Positions 37,321 through 49,370 of a stretch of 64,000 nt of DNA are shown here, piece after piece. Position numbers and translations under genes: made by a program. Each line of letters opens with the position of its first letter. Within the stretch, counting starts at the first letter, position 1. The stretch is from positions 3,534,001 to 3,598,000 of the forward strand of contig NZ_CP018082.1 of assembly GCF_001886715.1 (NCBI RefSeq), written 5' to 3'. The notes under the pieces are model-generated. The model was not told where the DNA came from, did no database searches, and worked only from the letters and a program-made list of their open reading frames with translations. The DNA comes from Nocardia mangyaensis (lineage in GTDB: Bacteria; Actinomycetota; Actinomycetes; Mycobacteriales; Mycobacteriaceae).

Positions 37321-40300
37321 TCAGTCCTGTTCGGGTCTGGCCCGTCGCAGGACCTCGTCCTCGGTGAGCGCGCTGGCTGGATGGTGGCTCAGGCACATCG
37401 GTGCGCTGAGCTTGCCGAAGCCCGCTCCTTCGGTGGCGCCGTAGAACCGGCCGGCGGGCAGGCGGGCGACATCGTCGATGCGGCCGCCCTTGGCCCTGGC
37501 CAGTTCGGCGGCGGCCTGGATCTGGACCGGCGAGTTGAGCAGTCCGAAGAACTGGGTGGCCGCGTTCCCGGTGACCAAGTTGTGCAACGCTTTCGGGGCC
37601 TGGGTCGCGTAGACCATGCCGAGACCGTATTTGCGGGCCTGGGTCGCCAGCTTCAGGGTGCTCTCGGTGGACGCGGTGCTGCCTCGCGACGGGACGAAGG
37701 TCTGGGCCTCGTCGAGCACGAGGAGACCACCCAGCGGGCGATCGCCGGCGGGATGGCGCTTGATCCAGGCGAACAGCGCCAATTGCAGTTGATTGACGAA
37801 GGTCTGGCGCTGCTCGTCGGTCGGCAATCCGATGCAGCTGATCACCGAGACTCGGGCGTGTTTGCCCGGTGCGGGGGTGAGCAGCATGCCCGGGTCCAGT
37901 CGCACGCCCGCGCCACCGAAGACGGGGTCGTTGATCATCGCCGCCTTGAGTTCCTCGGCCATGCCCTCGGCGAGGCGGTGGGCGTCTCTGATGGTGCTGA
38001 TGTTCTCGGGCAGATCGCCGAGCAGCGTGACGAATTCGCCGAGATCGCTGCCGCCGCGGCGGGCGAAGTGGGTCAGCGCCTCGGTGAGCACGGCCTTGCC
38101 GGTGCCGACCCGGCGCGCGGTGAGTCCGGCGCGGGGGACCAGGCCCGCGACGGAGGCATCGATCGAGGTGCGGAACTCGTCCGGATCATCGAGCACGCCA
38201 CCGAAATCCGGTAGGGGATTGAGGGCGAGTGGTCGGCCTGCCTCGCGGCGCGGTGTCCAGACGACCACGTCGGTTCCGGCGAAGTACTGATCGGCGCGGG
38301 CGATGTCGCCCGGGCTCCAGCCGGGCGGTGGCGACGGCCACGGGTCACCCAGGCGCGCCAGGTCGTTGTTGCTGTCGATGAGGATCGAGGACACGCCGTG
38401 GAGGGCGGCCTCCTCGACCAGCCTGCGCAGCAGCACGGTCTTGCCGGAGCCGCTGCCCGCGAAGACGGCGGTGTGTTTGCGCAGCAGGACCAGCGGGACG
38501 GTGAAGGGTGTGCCGTGCTCGACATGGTGGCCGAGCAGGACCGACGGTGGCGCGTCGGCGTCACCAGGCAGCGGATGCGGGGGAGCGGGGAGCAGCCGGC
38601 GCGTGGTCGGCTCGGCGAGCGGTGGATCCGCGAGCTGTGTCGTGCCCGATGCCGTTGCTGCGGTCGGTGCGTCGGCCGGTGGCGACGGTGCTCGATCCGG
38701 CTCGACCAGCTCCGGGCGCCGCGTGGCCGCGGGGCCGAGACTCAACACCGTGGCCAGCAGCTGTGATCGGCTCGCCGGGCGTCGGATCGCGAGCCAGCTC
38801 AGGAATCCGGGCCTGGCCGCGGCGGACATCGCCCCGAGGGCGGAGAACGTCCGGATGTCGTCCTCGGAGACAGGCACCGCCACCCCGTGCGCCGCTTCGA
38901 ACTCGGCCAGCGTGGCGGCGGTGACGGGCCCGCTGGAGAACGGGGTGTTCCGCAGAATGATCAGATGCCGTTTCGGTGCCTTTTCGTGCAGACCGGCTTC
39001 CAGACTCGCCGAGCGCAACCGGGTGAGCACCGCGCGATGATGTGGATGGCTGATCGCGCGAAAACCCCAGTGCTCCTCCGCCTCACTGGCTTCGTCGAGC
39101 GTGTGGCGCAACCGTGCGTGCAGGGCGGGGCGAACGATGGTCGCCGGATCGACGGTGAGGGCGAACCCCTCGTCGCGCCGTTCGAGAGTGTAGACCGTGA
39201 GCGCGGCATTGAGCAGCGCGAACATGCGTTCGTCCTCGTAGGTCGGATCGAACGGGGACACGACGTCGGCCTCCGCGCGCAGGCGCGCGAATTCCTCGTC
39301 GAGTGTGGCCAGTTCGCCGACAGCCGACGGGGCGACCTGCGCGCGATCCACGGTCGAGGCGCGGAAATGCGTCATTTCGGAGACCTCGTCGGTGGCCAGG
39401 CAGTCGCGGACGTGTTCCTCGACCCGCTGCAGCAGCCGCCGCGGCGTGAAGTTCGCGGTGTCGGTGTCCTCGAAGGCGATCGGGAGCACCGGCCACGTCG
39501 GATACGGCGGCACGAAACCGATCTCGCCGTACAGGCCGCCGAGATGACCTTCGACGATGGCGGTCGCCACATCGACACTGGGCAGCTTGGTCGACAGTTC
39601 GAGCACCGTGAATCGATCGGCCGCCGAATTCACCGCGCGGGTCTCGAGCAGCTCCCACGATTTCGGAATGCAGGCCGCCACGATGATCGTCCGGGTCGTC
39701 TCCTCCCGCATCGCCATGAGCCCGTCGGCCAGCCGGTTGGCCAGTGAATCCTCGTCGATCTGATCCGACTGGGCGATGACGCTGTCGATCTGGTCGATGG
39801 CCAGCACGACGGGCCCGGTGAGGGCGAACAGCCGTGAGAGGTGCTGGAAGGTCAACTGCGGCACACAGTTGCGCTCGCGAAACCCCCATTCCGCGCGCTC
39901 GGCGTCCTCGATGCCGTCGGCGAGGACGAGGAAGCTGTGCCCGATCTCGCGCAGCTGCCCTTTCGCCTGGTAGAGGACCAGCGCCCGCAGCGTGTCCTGG
40001 CACTGCTGCATCGCCTGGACATCGAGATCCTCCACCCGCGAGAGGAATTCGTCGAGATCGGCCCGGGTGACCCGCAGCGTGCCGCGCAGCCGCATACGCA
40101 GTTCCTGGTCGCAGCCGCTGCGCTCGGCCAGTACCCCGAGCATCCGGCCCAGCTGCCCGCCGTCGGCGCCGAGCAGCTGGCTGACGACACCGTGCACCGC
40201 GCCCGCCCAGAACGACTTGCCGTCGATCAGTTTGGGCATGAAGAACGCGCCGCCGCTGTCCTGGACGTGCTGACGCAGCCAACCGAGCATGTGGGTCTTG

Positions 40301-40506
40301 CCGACGCCACGCTCACCGCTGAGCACCAACCCGGTCGGGGTGCTGCGCGGTCGCGCCACGGCCGCGGCGACGGCGCGGGTGATCTCCCCGACGGCGCGCG
40401 GGTGCAGTCCGTCGACGTGATGGCTCAGCGGGCTCCAGATCTCGTCGGGGCCGAGCGCGCTGCTGAACTGGATCGAGGCGAGGGCATGATGGTGCTCCTC
40501 GTTCAC
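37321..40506 (-). CDS. Giant dual P-loop ATPase (AAA-like plus HerA/FtsK-like)
   Basis: A 1061-residue cytoplasmic protein with two ATPase modules. The N-terminal module (about 30-400) has Walker A SGERGVGKTH at 63-72 and Walker B VVLAIDQIDS at 233-242, in ORC/KAP-like style. A less conserved middle part (about 400-650) contains a Pro-rich linker. The C-terminal module (about 660-1061) is HerA-like: FAGSGSGKTVLL near 683, LLVLDEAQTFVP near 928, then QARKYGLGMVYATQAP. Such DNA-pumping ATPases work in DNA processing or anti-phage defence; nuclease partners are not visible. GTG 40506 overlaps the stop of the wHTH gene by 4 bp. The extension to 40899 is shadow. Confidence 0.82.
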   Translation of the reverse strand: MNEEHHHALASIQFSSALGPDEIWSPLSHHVDGLHPRAVGEITRAVAAAVARPRSTPTGLVLSGERGVGKTHMLGWLRQHVQDSGGAFFMPKLIDGKSFWAGAVHGVVSQLLGADGGQLGRMLGVLAERSGCDQELRMRLRGTLRVTRADLDEFLSRVEDLDVQAMQQCQDTLRALVLYQAKGQLREIGHSFLVLADGIEDAERAEWGFRERNCVPQLTFQHLSRLFALTGPVVLAIDQIDSVIAQSDQIDEDSLANRLADGLMAMREETTRTIIVAACIPKSWELLETRAVNSAADRFTVLELSTKLPSVDVATAIVEGHLGGLYGEIGFVPPYPTWPVLPIAFEDTDTANFTPRRLLQRVEEHVRDCLATDEVSEMTHFRASTVDRAQVAPSAVGELATLDEEFARLRAEADVVSPFDPTYEDERMFALLNAALTVYTLERRDEGFALTVDPATIVRPALHARLRHTLDEASEAEEHWGFRAISHPHHRAVLTRLRSASLEAGLHEKAPKRHLIILRNTPFSSGPVTAATLAEFEAAHGVAVPVSEDDIRTFSALGAMSAAARPGFLSWLAIRRPASRSQLLATVLSLGPAATRRPELVEPDRAPSPPADAPTAATASGTTQLADPPLAEPTTRRLLPAPPHPLPGDADAPPSVLLGHHVEHGTPFTVPLVLLRKHTAVFAGSGSGKTVLLRRLVEEAALHGVSSILIDSNNDLARLGDPWPSPPPGWSPGDIARADQYFAGTDVVVWTPRREAGRPLALNPLPDFGGVLDDPDEFRTSIDASVAGLVPRAGLTARRVGTGKAVLTEALTHFARRGGSDLGEFVTLLGDLPENISTIRDAHRLAEGMAEELKAAMINDPVFGGAGVRLDPGMLLTPAPGKHARVSVISCIGLPTDEQRQTFVNQLQLALFAWIKRHPAGDRPLGGLLVLDEAQTFVPSRGSTASTESTLKLATQARKYGLGMVYATQAPKALHNLVTGNAATQFFGLLNSPVQIQAAAELARAKGGRIDDVARLPAGRFYGATEGAGFGKLSAPMCLSHHPASALTEDEVLRRARPEQD

Positions 40507-41111
40507 CGTGCCCCCTCGATCGTGAGCAGATGTCGCGGGGTCCCGCCCAGCACGACCGCCGCGTCCAGATCCGCGTCGGTGAGAGTCTTCTGATCTGCTT
40601 CCGACCGCACATGAACACCGTCGCGCCGGGCGAGCAGTTCCAGTGCCCGGTCGAAGTCGCCGCGCGGCAGACCGTCGAGGCGCTCGCGCAGCACCGCGAG
40701 GCGCACCGGTGCGCCGCTGCCACGGGTGACGTGGGTGTAGGCCGCTTCCACCTGGCCCGCCACATCGGGCCGGAACAGCTCGGCCAGCGCGTGACCGGAG
40801 TCGCCGAGGTAGCGGCCGAGCCCGGCGAGCACCGCGTAGAGCGCACCGCCCGCGGGGCCGGAGCGGTCCGGGCGTTGGGCGCCGAGTTCGGCGACACACC
40901 GGACGGCGCCACGGTCGGTGAGTTCGTGGACATAGGCACGGTTGACCAGCGTGCTGGTGACCAGGCCCAGGTCGTTGAGGTTGCGACGGTACCTGCCGTC
41001 GAGTTTGAGTCCGGCGATGGCGTGCAGCTCGGCATTGGTGAGTTCACGCGCTTCGGCCATCAAGACGAGCAGCACACAGCGCTCGGTCAGCGTCAATCGG
41101 TCATCGGACAT
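40503..41111 (-). CDS. Winged-helix-like partner of the dual ATPase
   Basis: A 202-residue protein. Its first 70 residues (LTLTERCVLLVLMAEARELT, ELHAIAGLKLDGRYRRNLND and LGLVTS) read as a winged helix; a second helical repeat (VRLAVLRERLDGLPRGDFDR) has the same shape near residue 150. It may bind DNA or act as a subunit or adaptor of the ATPase, to which it is coupled by a GTGA overlap. No named family was recognised. ATG 41111 lies 31 bases after the frameshifted upstream gene. Confidence 0.7.
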   Translation of the reverse strand: MSDDRLTLTERCVLLVLMAEARELTNAELHAIAGLKLDGRYRRNLNDLGLVTSTLVNRAYVHELTDRGAVRCVAELGAQRPDRSGPAGGALYAVLAGLGRYLGDSGHALAELFRPDVAGQVEAAYTHVTRGSGAPVRLAVLRERLDGLPRGDFDRALELLARRDGVHVRSEADQKTLTDADLDAAVVLGGTPRHLLTIEGAR

Positions 41112-41142
41112 GGCTGTCCCCGTTTCTTCTCTGAGGTGGTGG

Positions 41143-41536
41143 TCATGGGTGGTGCACGGTGAAACCATCTGCCGCCGTGACGATTCCGGTCGGGCGCGCG
41201 ATGCGCGCGATCGGGCCGTGGACGCCGACCGAGTGCCACAGGGGTAGCTGGTCCGCGCGTTTGACCACCGCGCGCAGCCGCTCACCCGAACTGGGCGGGA
41301 AAGCCACGGATTCCTCGGTGCGAGGCAGGCGTAGCGACCAGCGGAAACGCAGGTCGAAGGCGGACACGCCGCCGAGGTCTGCCAGCGCGTTCACCGAGGA
41401 GGAGGCGTCGAGTCGGCGGAGGTCGGCGACCGCGCCGGCGGGTGTCTCTCGGGGACAGGCGCGCTTCGGTGCGCAGCGAGGTGTAGTAGCCGATGTCGGC
41501 GCCGAATGTGCCCTGGTGGTTACGTGTGTCGAGCAA
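41143..41536 (-). pseudogene. Frameshifted first gene of the dual-ATPase operon
   Basis: Two overlapping frames join into one coherent protein of about 130 residues if one base is removed from the run of four Cs on the coding strand (GGGG at 41451-41454 on the plus strand). The 5' frame starts at TTG 41536 with GGGGGA upstream and gives LDTRNHQGTFGADIGYYTSL. The 3' frame continues as NALADLGGVSAFDLRFRWSL and LPLWHSVGVHGPIARIARP. No family recognised. Either a true loss of function, a programmed shift, or an assembly error in a homopolymer. Confidence 0.6.
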
Positions 41537-41739: not shown

Positions 41740-42657
41740 TCAGGACACTCGGCGATCAGCTGCCCACGAAGGCAAGGGCTCGCGGGCCGACAGCCACGAC
41801 TCCGGGACTCCGCGGATCGTGTCGCGCTCACCGATGCCGGTGTGCGCTGCCACTATTCCGCCGACGATCGCGGCGGTGGTGTCGACATCGCCGCCTGCCT
41901 CGACACAGGCGGTGATCGCCGCGGGATAGTCGGTGAGGTAGGTGGCTGCGGCCCACAGTGCGAACGGAACCGTGTCCTGCGCGCTGACCGATGCGCCGTT
42001 GCCCAGCGAGTAGGCGGCCTCGGCGACGGAGCGTCCGAGTTGTCGTCGGGCACGTCGGACTCCTTCCGAGGTCCGGCCGTCCACCAGGTACGGGCCGACT
42101 GCGTCGAGCAATTCCTCTGGTGCGCAGCTTCTTCCGCGCGTAGCGGCCGCGTGACTCGCCGCAACGGCGACCGCCATGGCGCCGACGATGGCTTCCGGGT
42201 GGCGGTGGGTGACCTCGGCGGACGACGCGGCTTCGGTGGCCGCTCGGTCGGGGTCGCCCGCGAAGTGGGCGCCGAGTGGGGCCACTCGCATCGCGGCACC
42301 GTTGCCCCAGGAGCCACGGCCACCGAAGGCCGCGCCCGCGGCCCCGGACCACGGGCGGCCATCGCGGATCTCGTGCAGCACCACCACGGTGCCACCGCCG
42401 TAGCCGCGATAGGGCTCGCAGCGGTCGGCGAACAGGGCGGCGAGGGTGTCACGGTCGATGTGACCGAGGAGTTGGATCTGTTCGTGGACCGAGCAGGCCA
42501 TTTCGGTGTCGTCGGTCCACGGCCACGGGGCGGCAGGTGGGCTGCCGTCACGGAGCTCGGGGAACGAGCGACCGGGAACGAAGAACTGTGCTCCTAGCGC
42601 GTCTCCGACGGAAAGACCGTCGAGGCTGTCGCGAGCGATATCGGGAACCGGCGTCAT
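41740..42657 (-). CDS. ADP-ribosylglycohydrolase family protein
   Basis: A 305-residue ARH/DraG-type hydrolase that would remove ADP-ribose from proteins or nucleic acids. Motifs: SLDGLSVGDALGAQF at the N-terminus, WTDDTEMA (Mg-binding Thr-Asp-Asp) near residue 48, GRGSWGNGAAMRVAPLG near 118, and GGDVDTTAAIVGGIVAAHTG near 262. All metal ligands are present, so it is probably active. Last gene of the STM401x cluster, joined to the radical SAM gene by an ATGA overlap. The context suggests ADP-ribosylation is part of the system. Confidence 0.9.
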   Translation of the reverse strand: MTPVPDIARDSLDGLSVGDALGAQFFVPGRSFPELRDGSPPAAPWPWTDDTEMACSVHEQIQLLGHIDRDTLAALFADRCEPYRGYGGGTVVVLHEIRDGRPWSGAAGAAFGGRGSWGNGAAMRVAPLGAHFAGDPDRAATEAASSAEVTHRHPEAIVGAMAVAVAASHAAATRGRSCAPEELLDAVGPYLVDGRTSEGVRRARRQLGRSVAEAAYSLGNGASVSAQDTVPFALWAAATYLTDYPAAITACVEAGGDVDTTAAIVGGIVAAHTGIGERDTIRGVPESWLSAREPLPSWAADRRVS

Positions 42658-43595
42658 ACGGTGTCGAATTGTGTCAGTTCCCGGCTGACCGGCGCAATGC
42701 GTGTCGACGTGGGCGCCTCGGTAGGGCGCGGCTGTCGGGGCAGCTCGACGGGCGAACGCGCCGGAATCCGTTCCAGGACTCCACCGGCGAACACGTCGTA
42801 CAGCGGCAGGGTTTCGAGGTGGACGTAGCCGATGTGGCAGTCGCACACCGCGAGCGGGCAGGTGCGGGGTGCGAGGGTGGCGCGGTAGGAGCCGTCGTAG
42901 AGGTTGCCCAAAGGGGTGGGGACGAAATGGCAGCGGCGGACGGTTCCTTCACCGTCGACCGAGATCACCGAAGAGCCGGTGCGGCACCGTGCTCCGGCTG
43001 AGCGGTGGGGGTGGCGGCTGAACGGGAACAGTTCGTCGATGGCGGTCCAGTCGGCGGCTTGATCGTCGGTGTAGGTGTGGCCGTCGGCGGCATTGACCCA
43101 GAGATAGACGTGGTCGGGCAGGTCGGCACGCAGGCGGCGGGCATGGTCGAGGTGCTCGGGCAGCCCGACGATACCGACGCTGAACCGGATGCCCTGGGCG
43201 GCAAGACGTTCGGCCTTGTCCAGGAATCGTCGATACGGTGTCTGACCGGGGTGGTAGGTACACCAGAGGGCCAGGATGCCGGGATCGGCCTCGGCGGTCC
43301 ATTCGATCCGGCCGCCGAGGTTGGTCTGGATCGCGACGCGATCGATGTGGGGCTGCCGCGACAGCTCGACCAAGGCCTTGCGATACCACGACCGCACCAG
43401 AGCTTCGCCCCAGGGCGTGAACAGCACCGCGAGCCGGTCATCGGTCTGCGCGCACGCCCAGTCGGTGAAGCGTTGCAGCGCGGCGCGATCGGCGCGCAGC
43501 TGTGCGGTGCTGTCACGGCGTTTGGCGAAGGGGCAGTACGGGCAGTCGTAGTCGCACGAGGACAGCGGCCCGCGGTAGAGGATCGTCAGGTCCAT
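42654..43595 (-). CDS. STM4011-family radical SAM protein
   Basis: A 313-residue radical SAM protein. The cluster motif is CDYDCPYC (Cys14, Cys18, Cys21) in the N-terminal strand-loop. Additional Cys in the C-terminal half (GARCRTG, VRRCHF and CPLAVCDCHIGY) could bind a further cluster, as in SPASM-type proteins, or form an auxiliary site. Substrate unknown. It overlaps the STM4012-like start side by one base (TGATG) and the ADP-ribosylglycohydrolase start by 4 bp. Assignment to STM4011 rests on the combination of motif, length and neighbours. Confidence 0.85.
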   Translation of the reverse strand: MDLTILYRGPLSSCDYDCPYCPFAKRRDSTAQLRADRAALQRFTDWACAQTDDRLAVLFTPWGEALVRSWYRKALVELSRQPHIDRVAIQTNLGGRIEWTAEADPGILALWCTYHPGQTPYRRFLDKAERLAAQGIRFSVGIVGLPEHLDHARRLRADLPDHVYLWVNAADGHTYTDDQAADWTAIDELFPFSRHPHRSAGARCRTGSSVISVDGEGTVRRCHFVPTPLGNLYDGSYRATLAPRTCPLAVCDCHIGYVHLETLPLYDVFAGGVLERIPARSPVELPRQPRPTEAPTSTRIAPVSRELTQFDTV

Positions 43596-44932
43596 CAGCG
43601 CAGCTCGTAGGCGGCCATGGCGGCACGCACGTCGGGGGAGAAGAAGCCGGGGCCGATGGCGTCGGAGTAGGCCAGGCCCGCCGGGGACAGGCGCAGCAGT
43701 TCGGCGCCGGTCTCGGCGAGCCAGCCGCGACCGGCGAGTGCGTGCAACTGTTCACCGAAGTGATCCCAGGGATCGGCGCCGAAGCGTCGGCGGTAGTCCG
43801 CGACGGGCAGGCCCTCGGTTTGCAGCAGTGATTGCAGCAGGTGCCTGCGTGCGGCTTCGTCGCCATCGATCACCCGGCCGTGCACGGCCGAACCGAAATC
43901 CGTGGTGGCGACGTAGCTGTCGATGATGCCGCGGACTTCGCGCAGCTCGACGGCATAGTCGAAGGAGTAGTGCAGTCGGGAGGTGTAGGAGCGGGCGCCG
44001 CAGCCGAGCCCGATCATGCCGTCGGTCTGGCAGGCGTAGTCGTCCGGGCCCTGGGGCGGGGCGTCGCCGCGGCGGAACATGCGCATGGACACCTGCTGGT
44101 AGCCCTGCGCCAGCAGGTGATCGCGGCCCTGAGCGTAGCGGGCGAGCCGCTCCCGATCCCAGTCCTGTTCGGCGACATCGAGATCGGCGTGCCTGGCCAG
44201 CCCCGTGAGCGGGCGCACATAGAGCGGGTACAGGTAGATCTCCTCAGGCCGCCACGCCAGCGCCGCGTCGAGGGAGTGCCGCCAGCTCGCGGCGGTCTGG
44301 CCGTCGATGCCGTAGATCAGGTCGATGTTGAGCACCGGAATCCCCGCGTCGCGGATTCGGCCCAGTGCGGCTTCGACATCGGCGCGGCGCTGCGGTCGCA
44401 CCGCCGCGCGGGCCTCCTCGTCGACGAAGCTCTGCACGCCCAAGCTGAGCCGGGTCGCACCGCGCTCGGCGAGCACAGCCAGCCGGTCGGCGGTGCAGGT
44501 CGACGGGGACGCTTCCACCGAGAGCGGGATCGCGCGCAGATCCGCGCCCATGATCTGTTCGGCGATATCGCACAGCCTGGTCAGCTCACCCGCGTCGAGA
44601 AAGGTCGGCGTGCCGCCGCCGAAGGCAGCATTGGCGAACCGGGGCGATTCGGCCTCGCCCAATGCCGCGCGGACGGCGGTGGCCTGGCGGGCGAGGGCGT
44701 CGAGATAGCGGCCGGTCAGGTCGGCCGGTGCCCCGACTCTGGTGAACAGATTGCAGAAGCCGCAGCGCACCTCACAGAACGGGATGTGCAGATACAGCGA
44801 GAGTGCGGAACGGGATTCGCCCGCCCAGACGCGGGCGAGCGCGGGGCGATCCGGCAGCGGACGGTAGGCGGTCTTGTGCGGGTAGGCGTAGACGTAGTTC
44901 TGATACGGGCGAGGTAGGGCGGTGTCGATCAT
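43595..44932 (-). CDS. STM4012-family radical SAM protein (HemN-like)
   Basis: A 445-residue protein resembling coproporphyrinogen dehydrogenase/HemW. Radical SAM motif CEVRCGFC near residue 53, SAM-binding AFGGGTPTFLD near 108 and LSLGVQSF near 165, then NIDLIYGIDGQTA. The C-terminal winged part (LRLSPAGLAYSDAI) is HemN-like. It need not make heme; such proteins can methylate or carry heme. ATG 44932 has GGAG upstream and overlaps the preceding gene by 4 bp. Confidence 0.87.
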   Translation of the reverse strand: MIDTALPRPYQNYVYAYPHKTAYRPLPDRPALARVWAGESRSALSLYLHIPFCEVRCGFCNLFTRVGAPADLTGRYLDALARQATAVRAALGEAESPRFANAAFGGGTPTFLDAGELTRLCDIAEQIMGADLRAIPLSVEASPSTCTADRLAVLAERGATRLSLGVQSFVDEEARAAVRPQRRADVEAALGRIRDAGIPVLNIDLIYGIDGQTAASWRHSLDAALAWRPEEIYLYPLYVRPLTGLARHADLDVAEQDWDRERLARYAQGRDHLLAQGYQQVSMRMFRRGDAPPQGPDDYACQTDGMIGLGCGARSYTSRLHYSFDYAVELREVRGIIDSYVATTDFGSAVHGRVIDGDEAARRHLLQSLLQTEGLPVADYRRRFGADPWDHFGEQLHALAGRGWLAETGAELLRLSPAGLAYSDAIGPGFFSPDVRAAMAAYELR

Positions 44933-45765
44933 GGTGACGGCTCCAGGAAGAAGTGGCTGTAGGGGACCGTCCAGACGCTCTCGTGGCCGAGCCGGTGACC
45001 GGTGTATCCGTCGTCGCCGTAGGCGGTGCCGTGGTCGGAGCACACGATCGCGAAGCAGCGGCGACGCGACCGCATCACCTCGAACAGACGTCCGACCTGG
45101 GTGTCGATGTATTCCAGTGCGGCGGCGTGAGTTTCGCGGCTGTCCCCGGCCGCACGGGTGGCGCCCGGCAGGTGGAACCAGTTCGGTTGGTGCAGCGCGG
45201 AGGCGTTGAGGAACAGGAAGATCCGCTGCTCGTCGGGCAGGGCGGCGACCGCCTGCTCGGCGCACGCCACCTGAGCCTCGAACGAAGTCGGCGAGGCCAC
45301 GGAGAACTCCGGCTCCCAGTGACTCTCCGCGAACAGGCCGGGCAGCACGCTGCCGAGCGCACCCTGCTTGTTGAAGAATCCGACGCCGCCGATACAGACG
45401 GTGTGATAGCCACGGCCGGCCAGGGCAGTCACGAGATCGGGTTCGTCGAAGACGAAGGTGCCCTCGGCGGTGGTCTCACTGCCGGCGAAACGCGCGGCGA
45501 ACAGTCGTGGATGCGGGCCGGGCGCGGCCGGAGTGGGCAGGAAACCGGCGAAGATGGCTTGGTGGGAGGCGTAGGTGAAACTGCCGGGCGCGTGCCTGCG
45601 CTGCCAGCGGCCCTCGGGCAGGTGGGCCGACAGGGTCGGTAGGCGGCCTGCCGCGGCGAGTTCGACGGCGACGTCGTAGCGCAAGGTGTCGAGGGTGAGC
45701 AGCAGGAGGTCGTCGCGGCCGATGACCTCGGTCATGTCGGGTCGCGTCAGCGTGGGTTCGGTCAT
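44929..45765 (-). CDS. STM4013/SEN3800-type sulfatase-fold hydrolase
   Basis: A 278-residue metallo-hydrolase of the alkaline phosphatase/sulfatase superfamily. Metal ligands are visible in LLLLTLDTLRYD at the N-terminus and CSDHGTAYG plus GHRLGHE at the C-terminus. The sulfatase Cys/Ser-x-Pro-x-Arg motif is absent; the Thr/Ser in GSFTYASHQA is a candidate nucleophile. It may cleave a phosphate or phosphodiester. ATGA overlaps on both sides bind it into the operon. ATG 45765 overlaps the ATP-grasp stop. Confidence 0.82.
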   Translation of the reverse strand: MTEPTLTRPDMTEVIGRDDLLLLTLDTLRYDVAVELAAAGRLPTLSAHLPEGRWQRRHAPGSFTYASHQAIFAGFLPTPAAPGPHPRLFAARFAGSETTAEGTFVFDEPDLVTALAGRGYHTVCIGGVGFFNKQGALGSVLPGLFAESHWEPEFSVASPTSFEAQVACAEQAVAALPDEQRIFLFLNASALHQPNWFHLPGATRAAGDSRETHAAALEYIDTQVGRLFEVMRSRRRCFAIVCSDHGTAYGDDGYTGHRLGHESVWTVPYSHFFLEPSP

Positions 45766-46856
45766 CGAAGGGGTCCGATCGTGGCCGGTCGCGGTGTCGC
45801 GGCCGCGAAGCGGGACGCGGCGGACAGCTGCGCCGCGTAGGTGTCGAGCCCCTCGGCGGAGCTGCCGGGGAGCCCGGTCAGTCCCGGCAACAGGTCGCCG
45901 AAGGCGTTGACCTCGCCGACCGTGAACCGGCGCCAGCCGAGACCGGGCAGCAGGTCGACCCCGACACAGAGGGTATCCGAGAAGCACGCGGCGGCGTGTT
46001 CACAGATCGTCATCGCCTCCGCCCACCGCGCACCCACCGCGGCCCGGACCGCGTCGAGGTCGCCGCGCGCGCCGCCCAGGTGCAGATTGGTCATCGGCGA
46101 GCGACTGGTGCGGACGACGACATGGGTGGCACGGCCCGCGATGACGACCACGCGCAGGTCGGCGGACCGCCCACCGAGCGTGGCCTTGGGAATCCAGCGC
46201 TCGAGGTGCAGGCCGTCGGGTGCGAGCCGGTCCACGATCGCGGCGATCGTCGACTCGTCCTGGTAGCGGCGCACGCGCAGCGAATTGTGCAACGCGCCGT
46301 CACGATCCACCTCGACCGAGGTGCTGGCCTGCCAGCGTCCCGAGGTCGTCGACTCGACAGCGAGAACGCCCGAGGCCGAGGACCCGTGGGCGAGTTTGAC
46401 GAACACCCGCGACATTCCGGCCGCGCGCATCCGCTCCCGCACATCGGTCCAGCCTCGCAGCGGGCCGGCCGCCGGTGCAGGCGGGACCGGGACACCCGCG
46501 GCAGCGAGTCGTGCGTGGCAGCGCCGCTTGTCGAACAGCACGGCCAGATCTGCCGGGTCGTCGAGGCGTCGACCACCGCGCAGGGACCGCACGGCCCCGA
46601 CGAAGTTCGCGTACCAGCGGGCGGAACCCTCCACGCGCGTCGGCTCGGGCACACCGCGCAAGAGTGCATCGACTGCCGGATTCTCGCCGGGAGAGTCCAG
46701 CCGGACGAACTCGTCGTCGGCGAAGCCGTGACCGCCCTCGGTCAACACCGCGTGCCAGGCGACGACCCGGGGCGCGGCGTGTCCGGCGGCGAGCACCGCG
46801 TCGGTGAACAGCCGGACCCGCCGGTTCTCGGCGTTGCCGACCACCGCCCATCGCAT
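45762..46856 (-). CDS. STM4014-family ATP-grasp protein
   Basis: A 364-residue ATP-grasp-type protein. The N-terminal Rossmann-like segment (RWAVVGNAENRRVRLF) is followed by the ATP-binding half: SRVFVKLAHGSSASGVLAVE near residue 150, DLRVVVIAG near 232, and the metal-binding FTVGEVNAFGDLLPG near 320. Such ligases make amide or peptide-like bonds to a carboxylate. In this operon it might modify a peptide or the leucine-rich-repeat protein; that is inference. It starts 6 bases after the leucine-rich-repeat gene. Confidence 0.82.
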   Translation of the reverse strand: MRWAVVGNAENRRVRLFTDAVLAAGHAAPRVVAWHAVLTEGGHGFADDEFVRLDSPGENPAVDALLRGVPEPTRVEGSARWYANFVGAVRSLRGGRRLDDPADLAVLFDKRRCHARLAAAGVPVPPAPAAGPLRGWTDVRERMRAAGMSRVFVKLAHGSSASGVLAVESTTSGRWQASTSVEVDRDGALHNSLRVRRYQDESTIAAIVDRLAPDGLHLERWIPKATLGGRSADLRVVVIAGRATHVVVRTSRSPMTNLHLGGARGDLDAVRAAVGARWAEAMTICEHAAACFSDTLCVGVDLLPGLGWRRFTVGEVNAFGDLLPGLTGLPGSSAEGLDTYAAQLSAASRFAAATPRPATIGPLR

Positions 46857-46862
46857 GTCAGT

Positions 46863-47843
46863 TCACTCGCCGACCGCGACGAATCGCCAGACCGAGCCGT
46901 CGTCGTCCTCGTCCTCGTCGGCGTCGTCGACCGCCAGATTCAGTTCGACACCGGCTGCGGTGAGGGTGTCGGTCAAGCGGGCACCGAGCTCGGAACTCAC
47001 GTAGTTGTGGTGCAGGTCCAGCGATGTCAGGTGGGTCAGAGGCTGGCCGCCGAGCAGGGCCGCGACGCCGTCGTCGGTGAGCACCCCCATCGACAGGTCG
47101 AGTTCGTCGAGCCGCGCGACGACCGGCGCCGAGGCCACCGCCGCGCAGATGACGTCCTGGATCTCGCTGTTGCGCAGGGCCAGTCGCTTCAGACTCGGCA
47201 GCCGGTCACCGGACAGAATCGGGGCGAGGTCGTCGACATCGCTGTCGCCACCGTATTCGGAGGTGCCGAGCCACAGTTCGAGATCGACCAGGGCGGGTAG
47301 CTCGCTGGCCGCGACACCGCGCACCACCGTGACTGGCAGACCGCCGGCCTCCACCGTCAGCTTGCGCAGGCTCTCGTGCCGGACCGTGGTGAACTCGAGG
47401 CGCTCCCCGCCGCGCACGCCCAGCTCCTCGAGCGCGGGAAACGCCTCGAGCAGGCGGGTCACCTCGCCCTGATTGATCCAGGAGATCTCGCATTCCTCGC
47501 CGATGATGTCGCCCACGAACACCGCACGCAGTGCCGGAAGCTGTTCGCGGGCGGCAACGATGGCCTCGATCGCGCCGTCGGGGCGGTTCTCGTAGGCATC
47601 GGTCCAGGAACCGACGATGATGGCCCGCACCGCACCGGGGTCGACGGTGTCGAGGAACCGGGCGAACGCGTCCTCCCAGGATTCCGGCGCTTCGTAGGAA
47701 TCGACGGCGATCCGCCACGCCACCGAGTCCGCGGCGGGCAGCGATCGCACGGCCGCCGCCTGGTTCTCGGCGTCCTTCTCCGGGTCGGGGAAGGTGTAGG
47801 CGGGCAGGCCGCCCCACTCGCGCAGATGATCTCCGATGGTCAT
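46863..47843 (-). CDS. STM4015-family leucine-rich-repeat protein
   Basis: A 326-residue protein, first gene of the cluster. Its second half contains leucine-rich repeats (LPALVDLELWLGTSEYGGDS, LPSLKRLALRNSEIQDVI, LDELDLSMGVLTDDGVAALL and LTSLDLHHNYVSSELGARL). A short acidic segment (DDADEDEDDD) precedes the C-terminus. No signal peptide, so it is cytoplasmic, and it probably binds a protein or peptide partner. It is divergent from the unknown gene at 47998 across about 150 bp that would hold both promoters. Confidence 0.82.
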   Translation of the reverse strand: MTIGDHLREWGGLPAYTFPDPEKDAENQAAAVRSLPAADSVAWRIAVDSYEAPESWEDAFARFLDTVDPGAVRAIIVGSWTDAYENRPDGAIEAIVAAREQLPALRAVFVGDIIGEECEISWINQGEVTRLLEAFPALEELGVRGGERLEFTTVRHESLRKLTVEAGGLPVTVVRGVAASELPALVDLELWLGTSEYGGDSDVDDLAPILSGDRLPSLKRLALRNSEIQDVICAAVASAPVVARLDELDLSMGVLTDDGVAALLGGQPLTHLTSLDLHHNYVSSELGARLTDTLTAAGVELNLAVDDADEDEDDDGSVWRFVAVGE

Positions 47844-47997
47844 GTGTTCCCGCCCCTTCTGGCGTCGTGCCGTGTTCGCGACAGCTGCTTTCTACCAAGG
47901 CCCGCCGACAATTCCGGCGCCGGGCCGACTTGTCGGGACCTGCCGCTACCGTCCTGGCCAACGGCAGCGAAACGCGGGCCGTGGCGGGAGGAGAATC

Positions 47998-48324
47998 ATG
48001 TATCGACAAGGCGATGTGCTCATCGTCGCGCTGGCCGAGCACGCGGTGCCCGAGCACGCGCGTGCCGCGATGGGGGAGAAGCGCGATGGCCGGGGGCGGT
48101 TGGTGCTGGCGCTCGGCGAGGTGACCGGGCACGCGCACGCGATCGCCGGCCCCGGCCGATTGATCAGGGAGGCCGGGGCTTTCGGCCCGATGCTGCTGCA
48201 CCTGCCCGAGGGCGGGCGGGTCGTGCACGAGGAACACGCGGCCATCGGATTACCGAAAGGCTGGTACCGGGTGGTCCGCCAGCGTGAGTACGTCCCCGGT
48301 TCGGTCCGGGTGGTGGCCGACTGA
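47998..48324 (+). CDS. Unknown 108-residue protein, divergent from STM401x cluster
   Basis: A short basic/His-rich protein: MYRQGDVLIVALAEH, then LALGEVTGHAHAIAGPGR, LPEGGRVVHEEHAAIGLPKG and QREYVPGSVRVV. It could fold as a small beta barrel with several His in a metal-like site, but no family was recognised. GGGAGGAG stands just before the ATG with normal spacing. Its stop overlaps the start of the DUF6745 gene by one base, so the pair is coupled. Confidence 0.68.
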   Translation: MYRQGDVLIVALAEHAVPEHARAAMGEKRDGRGRLVLALGEVTGHAHAIAGPGRLIREAGAFGPMLLHLPEGGRVVHEEHAAIGLPKGWYRVVRQREYVPGSVRVVAD

Positions 48325-49370
48325 TGACGCGCAACCTTTCGGCGACAACGGAAACGAGCATCGAGACGACGCCGCGAGACTGGCGTGCGGTGGCGGCCGC
48401 GACGGGTAGTGGTGACCGGACGGCGGCAGAGGCCGGCGTGCGGCTGGCCTACACCCGCGCCGGGCTGGCCGAACCGGAGCGGATCGTGTGGGCCGCCTCG
48501 CCGTTGGCGGCTGTCGAGCTGCTGACCTCGGGCAGCATCGCGCCAGGAGCTCCTGTCCGGGAGGCCGTGCGCAACGGTCCATGGGCCGCCGAACGCGCGC
48601 GCCTGCACACCGCGCTCGGCACGAACGGCTACAGCGCGCACTGGCGGGCCACCGGCGCGGACCTGTGGGACCTGACGAATTCGGTGGTGGAACGCATCCG
48701 GGCCGGTGTCATCGACGCCGCGGCCGGTGATCGCAAGCGGGAACGGCAGATCCGGGTACTGCTGCTCGACGCCGTCCTCGGCCAGCACGAGGCCGCCTGG
48801 CTCAGCGCCTACGACACCGCGCCCGGTCATCCCCTCGACGGTGTCGCCGCGGTGGCCGCGCAGGCAGGCTGGTGGTGGCCCTATGCGAAGGTGGCGGTGA
48901 TCACCGAGCGGCCGCTCGAGCTTCACCGCGACGAAGCCGGACGACTGGACCGCGGCGACGGACCTGCCCTGGCGTACGCCGACGGCTTCGTTCTGCACGC
49001 CTGGCGTGGAATGCCGGTCACTGCCGAGTTCCTCGACAGCTTGCGCTCGCTGACCCCGCAGCGGATCCGGGAGGAGGAGAACGCGGAACTGCGCCGGGTG
49101 ATGCTCGAGTACTACGGCTACGACCGCTATCTCACCGAATCCGACGCCCGCCCCCTGCACCGCGATGAAACAGGCATCTTGTGGCGAATAGCGCTCGACG
49201 GCGACGAGGACGTGGTCATGGTCGAAGTGGTCAACTCCACCCCCGAACCCGACGGCGCCTACCGCACCTACTGGCTCCGCGTCCCACCCACCACCCGCAC
49301 CGCCCGCGAGGGCGTCGCCTGGACCTTCGGCTTGGGTGCCGACATCTACGAACCGCTCCAGCAGACCTGA
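48324..49370 (+). CDS. DUF6745 domain protein
   Basis: A 348-residue protein that I associate with DUF6745, which occurs in actinobacterial genomes with no assigned function. The first 130 residues are helical; then GWWWPYAKVAVITERPLELH and RLDRGDGPALAYADGF, and a conserved end (VVEVVNSTPEPDGAYRTYWL, RVPPTTRTAREGVAWTF). It is coupled to the 108-residue gene and divergent from the STM401x operon; the pair may belong to the same locus. Nothing indicates a catalytic activity. Confidence 0.72.
   Translation: MTRNLSATTETSIETTPRDWRAVAAATGSGDRTAAEAGVRLAYTRAGLAEPERIVWAASPLAAVELLTSGSIAPGAPVREAVRNGPWAAERARLHTALGTNGYSAHWRATGADLWDLTNSVVERIRAGVIDAAAGDRKRERQIRVLLLDAVLGQHEAAWLSAYDTAPGHPLDGVAAVAAQAGWWWPYAKVAVITERPLELHRDEAGRLDRGDGPALAYADGFVLHAWRGMPVTAEFLDSLRSLTPQRIREEENAELRRVMLEYYGYDRYLTESDARPLHRDETGILWRIALDGDEDVVMVEVVNSTPEPDGAYRTYWLRVPPTTRTAREGVAWTFGLGADIYEPLQQT

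Follow-up and report, generated by a model that had tools for sequence, protein, structure and literature searches.

The window analyzed here is a stretch of 64,000 nucleotides of Nocardia mangyaensis (contig NZ_CP018082.1, forward-strand positions 3,534,001 to 3,598,000), whose genome consists of a single contig of 7.31 Mb. It harbors an operon encoding one member of each of the protein families STM4011 to STM4015, followed by an ADP-ribosylglycohydrolase (ARH) gene. The six open frames were found where a first-pass annotation of this DNA had placed them, all on the minus strand and with family matches well above cut-offs. They are given below with positions counted from the first letter of the window (aa, amino acids; SAM, S-adenosylmethionine).

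46863..47843, minus strand: STM4015-family leucine-rich-repeat (LRR) protein, proposed substrate or carrier (326 aa; NCBIfam NF038076, 384.8 bits, cut-off 275)
45762..46856, minus strand: STM4014-family ATP-grasp ligase, LysX/RimK-like (364 aa; NCBIfam NF038074, 445.9 bits, cut-off 175)
44929..45765, minus strand: STM4013-family hydrolase of the alkaline phosphatase superfamily (278 aa; NCBIfam NF038075, 420.9 bits, cut-off 250)
43595..44932, minus strand: STM4012-family HemN-like radical SAM enzyme (445 aa; NCBIfam NF006067, 631.6 bits, cut-off 380)
42654..43595, minus strand: STM4011-family radical SAM enzyme with extra C-terminal cysteines (313 aa; NCBIfam NF038073, 405.9 bits, cut-off 200)
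41740..42657, minus strand: ARH gene (Pfam PF03747 ADP_ribosyl_GH, 182.8 bits, cut-off 26.2)

All five NCBIfam models scored above their curated cut-offs and in order, which identified the genes as a cluster of this type. Genes are transcribed from STM4015 through STM4014, STM4013, STM4012 and STM4011 to ARH. The serial overlaps of 1 to 4 bp described by the first-pass annotation were found at four of the five junctions (4, 4, 1 and 4 bp, the last being the STM4011-ARH junction), while STM4015 and STM4014 are separated by a gap of 6 bp. ARH, earlier called fused to the cluster, is a separate gene, whose likely start is the ATG at position 42657 and not the GTG of the longest open reading frame.

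Gene content was surveyed in 80 named loci around STM4015 relatives (the best 80 of at least 567 confirmed), nearly all from Nocardia and Streptomyces and the rest from other actinobacteria. Profile models derived from the window and its plasmid relatives served to locate the genes in the fetched loci. The closest STM4015 relatives among these 80 came from Nocardia (79-81% identity). The complete STM4011-STM4015 set was present in 75 of the 80 loci, and the five genes co-occur far beyond chance. Among the incomplete loci, L063, L070 and L085 were truncated by short contigs, L058 was a lone STM4015, and L078 had no local STM4014 although its genome encodes one. Members of the STM families were found in Actinomycetota, Deinococcota, Pseudomonadota, Bacillota and Bacteroidota, and STM4014 was present in 37 of 118 Nocardia genomes drawn separately. 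Two loci came from viral contigs, and one of these had the full set of five genes and a Bacteroides-like tail; a search of phages for DNA matching the operon found none.

Some clusters showed particular features. In a Salmonella record (L015), the cluster lies between ompL and a HAD hydrolase beside the sulfoquinovose genes; no near DNA relatives of this cluster were found in 5,426 complete E. coli genomes. In the cluster of a Bacteroides finegoldii plasmid (L017), STM4013 and STM4012 were represented by low-scoring pieces only, and STM4014 was split into three pieces in L095, which reflects either decay or sequencing error.

The STM4015 C-terminus and its putative ligase

The end of STM4015 comprises two elements, both encoded on the minus strand.

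46890..46934, minus strand: acidic flexible linker, residues 304-318 (low predicted local distance difference test score, pLDDT; variable in length and sequence)
46866..46889, minus strand: C-terminal tail WRFVAVGE with terminal Glu, the proposed ligation site (conservation and tail regular expression)

Glu was the last residue in 337 of 337 distinct STM4015 sequences from several phyla, with a lowest pairwise identity of 24% ("distinct" refers to distinct strings, some of which possibly are one protein with two starts). Representatives chosen at 70, 60, 50 and 40% identity (60, 23, 10 and 3 sequences, respectively) all ended in Glu. The same residue closed all of the first 12 aligned proteins, 105 of 105 closed frames in the first set (one more frame ran off its contig), 11 of 11 frames in a third set and 37 of 37 frames in the Nocardia regions. 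It was also last in each of the 120 best proteins out of 3016 matches, and again in each of the 120 best out of 1683 matches from a second search with non-actinobacterial seeds. Positions -2 to -8 were variable (G, T, S or A at -2), and the final residues of STM4014, STM4013 and STM4011 were not fixed.

A mostly acidic linker of varying length precedes the tail. The tail regular expression matched 145 of 154 STM4015 frames and, among the remaining 22,838 frames in the fetched loci, none; in a pattern search of its own genome, STM4015 was the only match. Two proteins carried two STM4015 domains per chain, and in both the inner copy was tail-less and the chain-terminal copy tailed. The AlphaFold model of STM4015 had a mean pLDDT of 91.8, with most of the LRR domain above 90, while means of 10-residue blocks from residue 301 on were 71, 52 and 55. 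In this model, the LRR domain is followed by a tail whose predicted order is low, with the terminal Glu at its end. The nearest solved structure is 2ra8. Many STM4015 proteins (P0128, P0220 and others, Bacteroidota among them) also harbored an N-terminal WGR domain (PF05406).

STM4014 is closest to LysX/ArgX and RimK by sequence profile and predicted fold. Profile matches in the PDB were to LysX/RimK, and the fold neighbours of its model, as aligned by VIA-align, were LysX, ArgX and RimK; NCBIfam assigns the STM4014 family only, and neither the RimK nor the LysX equivalog. According to excerpts of the cited papers, the site of LysX/ArgX action is the terminal Glu of LysW (PMC4490483; PMC9303977), and that of RimK action the C-terminus of ribosomal protein S6 (PMC10092738).

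STM4015 and STM4014 are also linked by their distribution. Among 14 plasmid records with STM4015, 13 carried STM4014, which was found on no other record (cut-offs 1e-5 and 1e-10). One Nocardia genome, recognized from identical STM4014 coordinates, encoded a cluster lacking STM4015 (L195) and, at another place, a lone STM4015 that is tailed (L058). Up to four tandem STM4015 copies faced one ligase (L089), and three metagenome proteins among those listed (P0253, P0258 and P0340) were STM4014-STM4013 fusions. The median net charge was -31.5 for STM4015 (142 frames) and +4 for STM4014 (123 frames). A strongly negative STM4015 and a slightly positive STM4014 fit the electrostatics of carrier systems, in which enzymes of amino-group carrier proteins pair by charge with the acidic carrier (PMC9303977, from an excerpt).

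The first-pass annotation had suggested that the repeat protein either binds the substrate of a modification pathway or is itself that substrate; the second alternative is supported, and the conserved terminal Glu together with the LysX/RimK-like STM4014 now suggest the site and the ligase. On balance, we consider it probable, with a good measure of doubt, that STM4011-STM4015 form a pathway of protein modification with the STM4015 C-terminus at its centre, and with predicted ligation at the terminal Glu, whatever the fate of the product.

Several observations weigh against this interpretation. Regarding the terminal residue, a metagenome protein (P0308, found among 120 listed STM4014 relatives) reads from STM4015 through into STM4014 and has its tail internal, the only exception met. 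The last residue is also nearly fixed in the two neighbouring genes described below, GHAH (D in 74 of 75 closed frames) and DUF6745 (T in 69 of 73), so terminal-residue conservation is suggestive and not decisive; the control genes were moreover compared on fewer and more uniform sequences, with 3 to 6 representatives at 60% identity versus 23 for STM4015. Regarding the ligase, the LysX/RimK profile match consists of two weak stretches of 13-15 bits each, and Vip1 kinase (E 0.0011) and D-Ala-D-Ala ligase (E 0.0012) came just below the cut-off. The VIA-align lead of LysX over PPIP5K2 (20.3) is 2.0, and the lowest RimK row (20.8) ties with PPIP5K2. Foldseek ranked the graspetide ligase PsnB second (E 1.9e-10); PsnB was not among the 50 VIA-align rows shown, an absence that excludes nothing. 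Among five models of STM4014, two were of poor quality (mean pLDDT 71). A Calothrix plasmid carried STM4015 without STM4014 (plasmid record alone searched).

The tail could instead be a docking signal only: STM4015 would recruit STM4014-STM4011, which would act on a small molecule or on another protein, and no bond would be made to the Glu. LRR folds commonly serve in binding, and LRR proteins are among the fold neighbours of STM4015; the lone STM4015 encoded apart from its cluster is still tailed. However, a docking signal need not end exactly at the chain end nor vanish when another domain follows, and the nearest relatives of STM4014 use a protein C-terminus. We regard this explanation as unlikely.

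Partner enzymes and proposed pathway

STM4013 had been described as a sulfatase-fold hydrolase. The fold fits, but the aligned nucleophile position is occupied by Thr and the protein appears phosphodiesterase-like. Its best PDB profile match was a nucleotide pyrophosphatase/phosphodiesterase (7n1s, E 1.1e-8), and the motifs FT[YFW]xxH and DHGT were each present in 121 of 121 frames. Sulfatases proper use a formylglycine nucleophile derived from Cys or Ser, in contrast to the Thr of all 121 frames; a role as phosphohydrolase or phosphotransferase is more likely for STM4013 than one as a sulfatase.

STM4012 matched HemN (1olt, E 2e-54) and NocN (9p2u, E 3e-32) in PDB profile searches and displayed CxxxCxxC in 121 of 122 frames. 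A fourth Cys is a feature of HemN, and it was missing from all 122 frames; a HemN-like decarboxylation of the Glu side chain by STM4012 was considered and not retained. The first-pass annotation had called an immunity or stress role plausible; among PADLOC models of anti-phage defence, the cluster gave a single match, that of STM4012 to PDC-M51A (33.5 bits, E 4.8e-9), and immunity is a hypothetical role. All 121 STM4011 frames had CxxxCxxC together with a set of conserved cysteines at the C-terminal end, and the C-terminal part of STM4011 matched SkfB (6efn, E 1.9e-4, PDB profile).

SkfB, the only solved STM4011 relative found, is an enzyme of ribosomally synthesized and post-translationally modified peptides (RiPPs). 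Together with the acidic tail and the Foldseek rank of PsnB, it would fit a graspetide-like RiPP, in which STM4014 forms a side-chain cross-link within the acidic tail and the radical SAM enzymes modify it further. Tail and linker have no conserved Ser, Thr or Lys partner, however, and the terminal Glu is their sole invariant residue, which makes such a product very unlikely.

In the proposed pathway, the very acidic LRR protein STM4015 would offer its folded domain as a docking platform, while the flexible tail would present the terminal Glu. STM4014 would use ATP to activate a carboxylate of this Glu and would link this carboxylate to a small compound through an amino group of the latter. 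Radical chemistry by STM4011 and STM4012 would then alter the attached group (or the tail), and STM4013 may cleave or transfer a phosphoryl group on the attached group. We infer ligation at the Glu, the order of these steps and the fate of the product.

The product could leave the protein. STM4015 would then be an amino-group carrier protein, on which a building block is loaded at the γ-carboxylate of the Glu, converted by STM4011-STM4013 and released as a metabolite. The ligase type and the terminal residue are those of LysW systems, and the charges of STM4015 and STM4014 are consistent with this version. On the other hand, no peptidase or amidohydrolase was found among the cluster genes in Pfam and NCBIfam scans, several tandem STM4015 copies occur in some clusters, and an LRR protein of 300 aa is unlike the small LysW. 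Release in this form, a sub-case of Glu ligation whose probability is counted within that given above, seems to us rather unlikely. Because the cluster has no peptidase and up to four tandem STM4015 copies are present per ligase, we somewhat favour a group that remains on the protein and functions there over one that is set free as a metabolite.

More tentatively, STM4015 may represent a new class of carrier, an LRR scaffold with a prosthetic group on the chain-terminal Glu. This group would be made by an ATP-grasp ligase and two radical SAM enzymes and presented by the LRR domain, and a single set of enzymes would serve several paralogous scaffolds of a genome; we find this possible but doubtful.

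Flanking genes

ARH was found in 1 of 70 named loci (L025, where it follows STM4011). Loci were counted when STM4011 was present with at least 1.2 kb behind it, which excluded 10 of the 80 (4 without STM4011 and 6 too short). In a second draw, covering the regions of 36 STM4014-bearing Nocardia genomes besides that of the window, ARH was present in 1 of the 35 clusters with room downstream (L183). Both surveys overlap by shared genomes, and L025 and L183 are apparently the same genome. ARH was neither annotated nor matched by profile in the plasmid clusters inspected, with a profile built from one sequence that could miss a very distant ARH. A tblastn search with ARH, covering seven close Nocardia loci and at most 4 kb behind STM4011 in each, gave no match (only 868 bases were available in L022).

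On these counts ARH was rejected as a core gene, and it looks like a local addition or bystander that is translationally coupled here. The first-pass annotation had placed ARH at the core of a chemistry in which ADP-ribose is attached or removed, and had proposed a neighbourhood survey for a constant ARH, with rare linkage elsewhere as the outcome speaking against it; rare linkage is what the survey displayed. The 4-bp overlap between STM4011 and ARH and its position behind STM4011 in one other Nocardia speak for ADP-ribose chemistry, and an excerpt of PMC4431377 describes ARH genes next to ATP-grasp ligases of other families. Nevertheless, as ARH is rarely linked in the surveyed loci, this reading is largely refuted and we hold it to be highly improbable, which removes a misleading lead. 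A second ADP-ribosylglycohydrolase is encoded far from the cluster in the same genome (G000:C1:2046377-2047174).

On the other side of the operon, two genes absent from the first-pass annotation diverge from STM4015.

47844..47997, no strand: intergenic region separating the operon from the divergent accessory pair (154 bp)
47998..48324, plus strand: "GHAH" protein, accessory module gene 1 (108 aa; invariant HxH and H-x-E-H in the alignment)
48324..49370, plus strand: DUF6745 protein, accessory module gene 2 (348 aa; Pfam PF20530, 380.8 bits)

Both genes were present in 67 of 80 named loci and in 30 of 36 Nocardia regions, and in Deinococcus and Methylobacterium the pair stands beside the cluster in other gene orders. 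GHAH and DUF6745 are thus a common neighbour of the cluster, yet accessory and dispensable. Eleven named loci had neither gene; searches made for these loci found DUF6745 elsewhere in 2 of 9 assemblies and in 0 of 1 plasmid record. Conversely, the pair occurred without a nearby cluster in Deinococcus ficus, Skermanella and the Microcystis phage LMM01 (gp175 and gp174). These pair-less loci and the occurrence of the pair apart from the cluster rule it out as an essential core. DUF6745 was found in 6 of 198 actinobacterial genomes, in four of the six beside STM4015. The invariant HxH and H-x-E-H residues of GHAH are suggestive of a metal site. Among PDB sequences, no relatives were found for GHAH, and the best for DUF6745 reached only E 0.99.

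Just downstream of the operon, a large AAA/HerA-like ATPase is encoded at 37324-40650 (minus strand), preceded and overlapped by a frame of 260 aa at 40503-41285 (minus strand) with no Pfam or NCBIfam family match.

Comparison with known systems

The open-licence literature, in which work from subscription journals could be missed, yielded no functional study under the STM locus or family names or DUF6745, no paper naming 2RA8 or Q64V53, and no work that brings together radical SAM, leucine-rich repeat, ATP-grasp and RiPP. In excerpts of two papers, STM4013.S is listed in a table of sigma-54 binding sites and STM4015 in a table of a positive-selection study. The structural genomics entry 2RA8 (Bacteroides fragilis Q64V53) is a member of the STM4015 family (E 2.6e-108); it ends in PMITE, followed by eight additional residues of its chain. 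All five genes of the window are members of the NCBIfam families STM4011-STM4015, whose model names and types state no function; the present analysis adds the terminal Glu and the link to LysX/RimK.

Graspetides differ by their conserved Ser/Thr/Lys partner, which was not found in the tail and linker of STM4015. Pearlins (3-thiaglutamate and relatives) carry a group that is added at a C-terminus and remodelled while tethered, as described in excerpts of PMC9303977, PMC9016710 and PMC11962472; for the STM cluster, the same course is a proposal. Pearlins depend on an aminoacyl-tRNA-dependent PEARL (peptide aminoacyl-tRNA ligase) acting on a short peptide, in contrast to the ATP-grasp ligase and large folded protein of the STM cluster; no PEARL (LanB-like) ligase was found in Pfam and NCBIfam scans of ten window proteins.

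The RimK/S6 (RpsF) system shares with STM4014 the ATP-grasp fold and an R...(S/T)NLH loop, and involves C-terminal modification (PMC10092738, from an excerpt). It differs in its target, which is S6 and not the linked STM4015; STM4014 is no RimK in NCBIfam and has dedicated radical SAM partners. With LysW and LysX/ArgX, the STM cluster has in common a conserved final Glu, an acidic carrier and an ATP-grasp partner of LysX type, to which STM4014 is similar in fold and sequence. In contrast to LysW, STM4015 is an LRR protein of 326 aa whose nearest folds are 2ra8 and LRR proteins, with no small LysW-like domain, and it is encoded with two radical SAM enzymes and a phosphodiesterase-like hydrolase, where LysW has enzymes of the lysine or arginine pathways.

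Five families known only by Salmonella locus names can be arranged into one testable pathway with a proposed substrate, exact residue and ligase. If this proposal is true, tethering at a C-terminus would reach beyond small carriers and ribosomal S6, to large LRR proteins with a link to radical chemistry.

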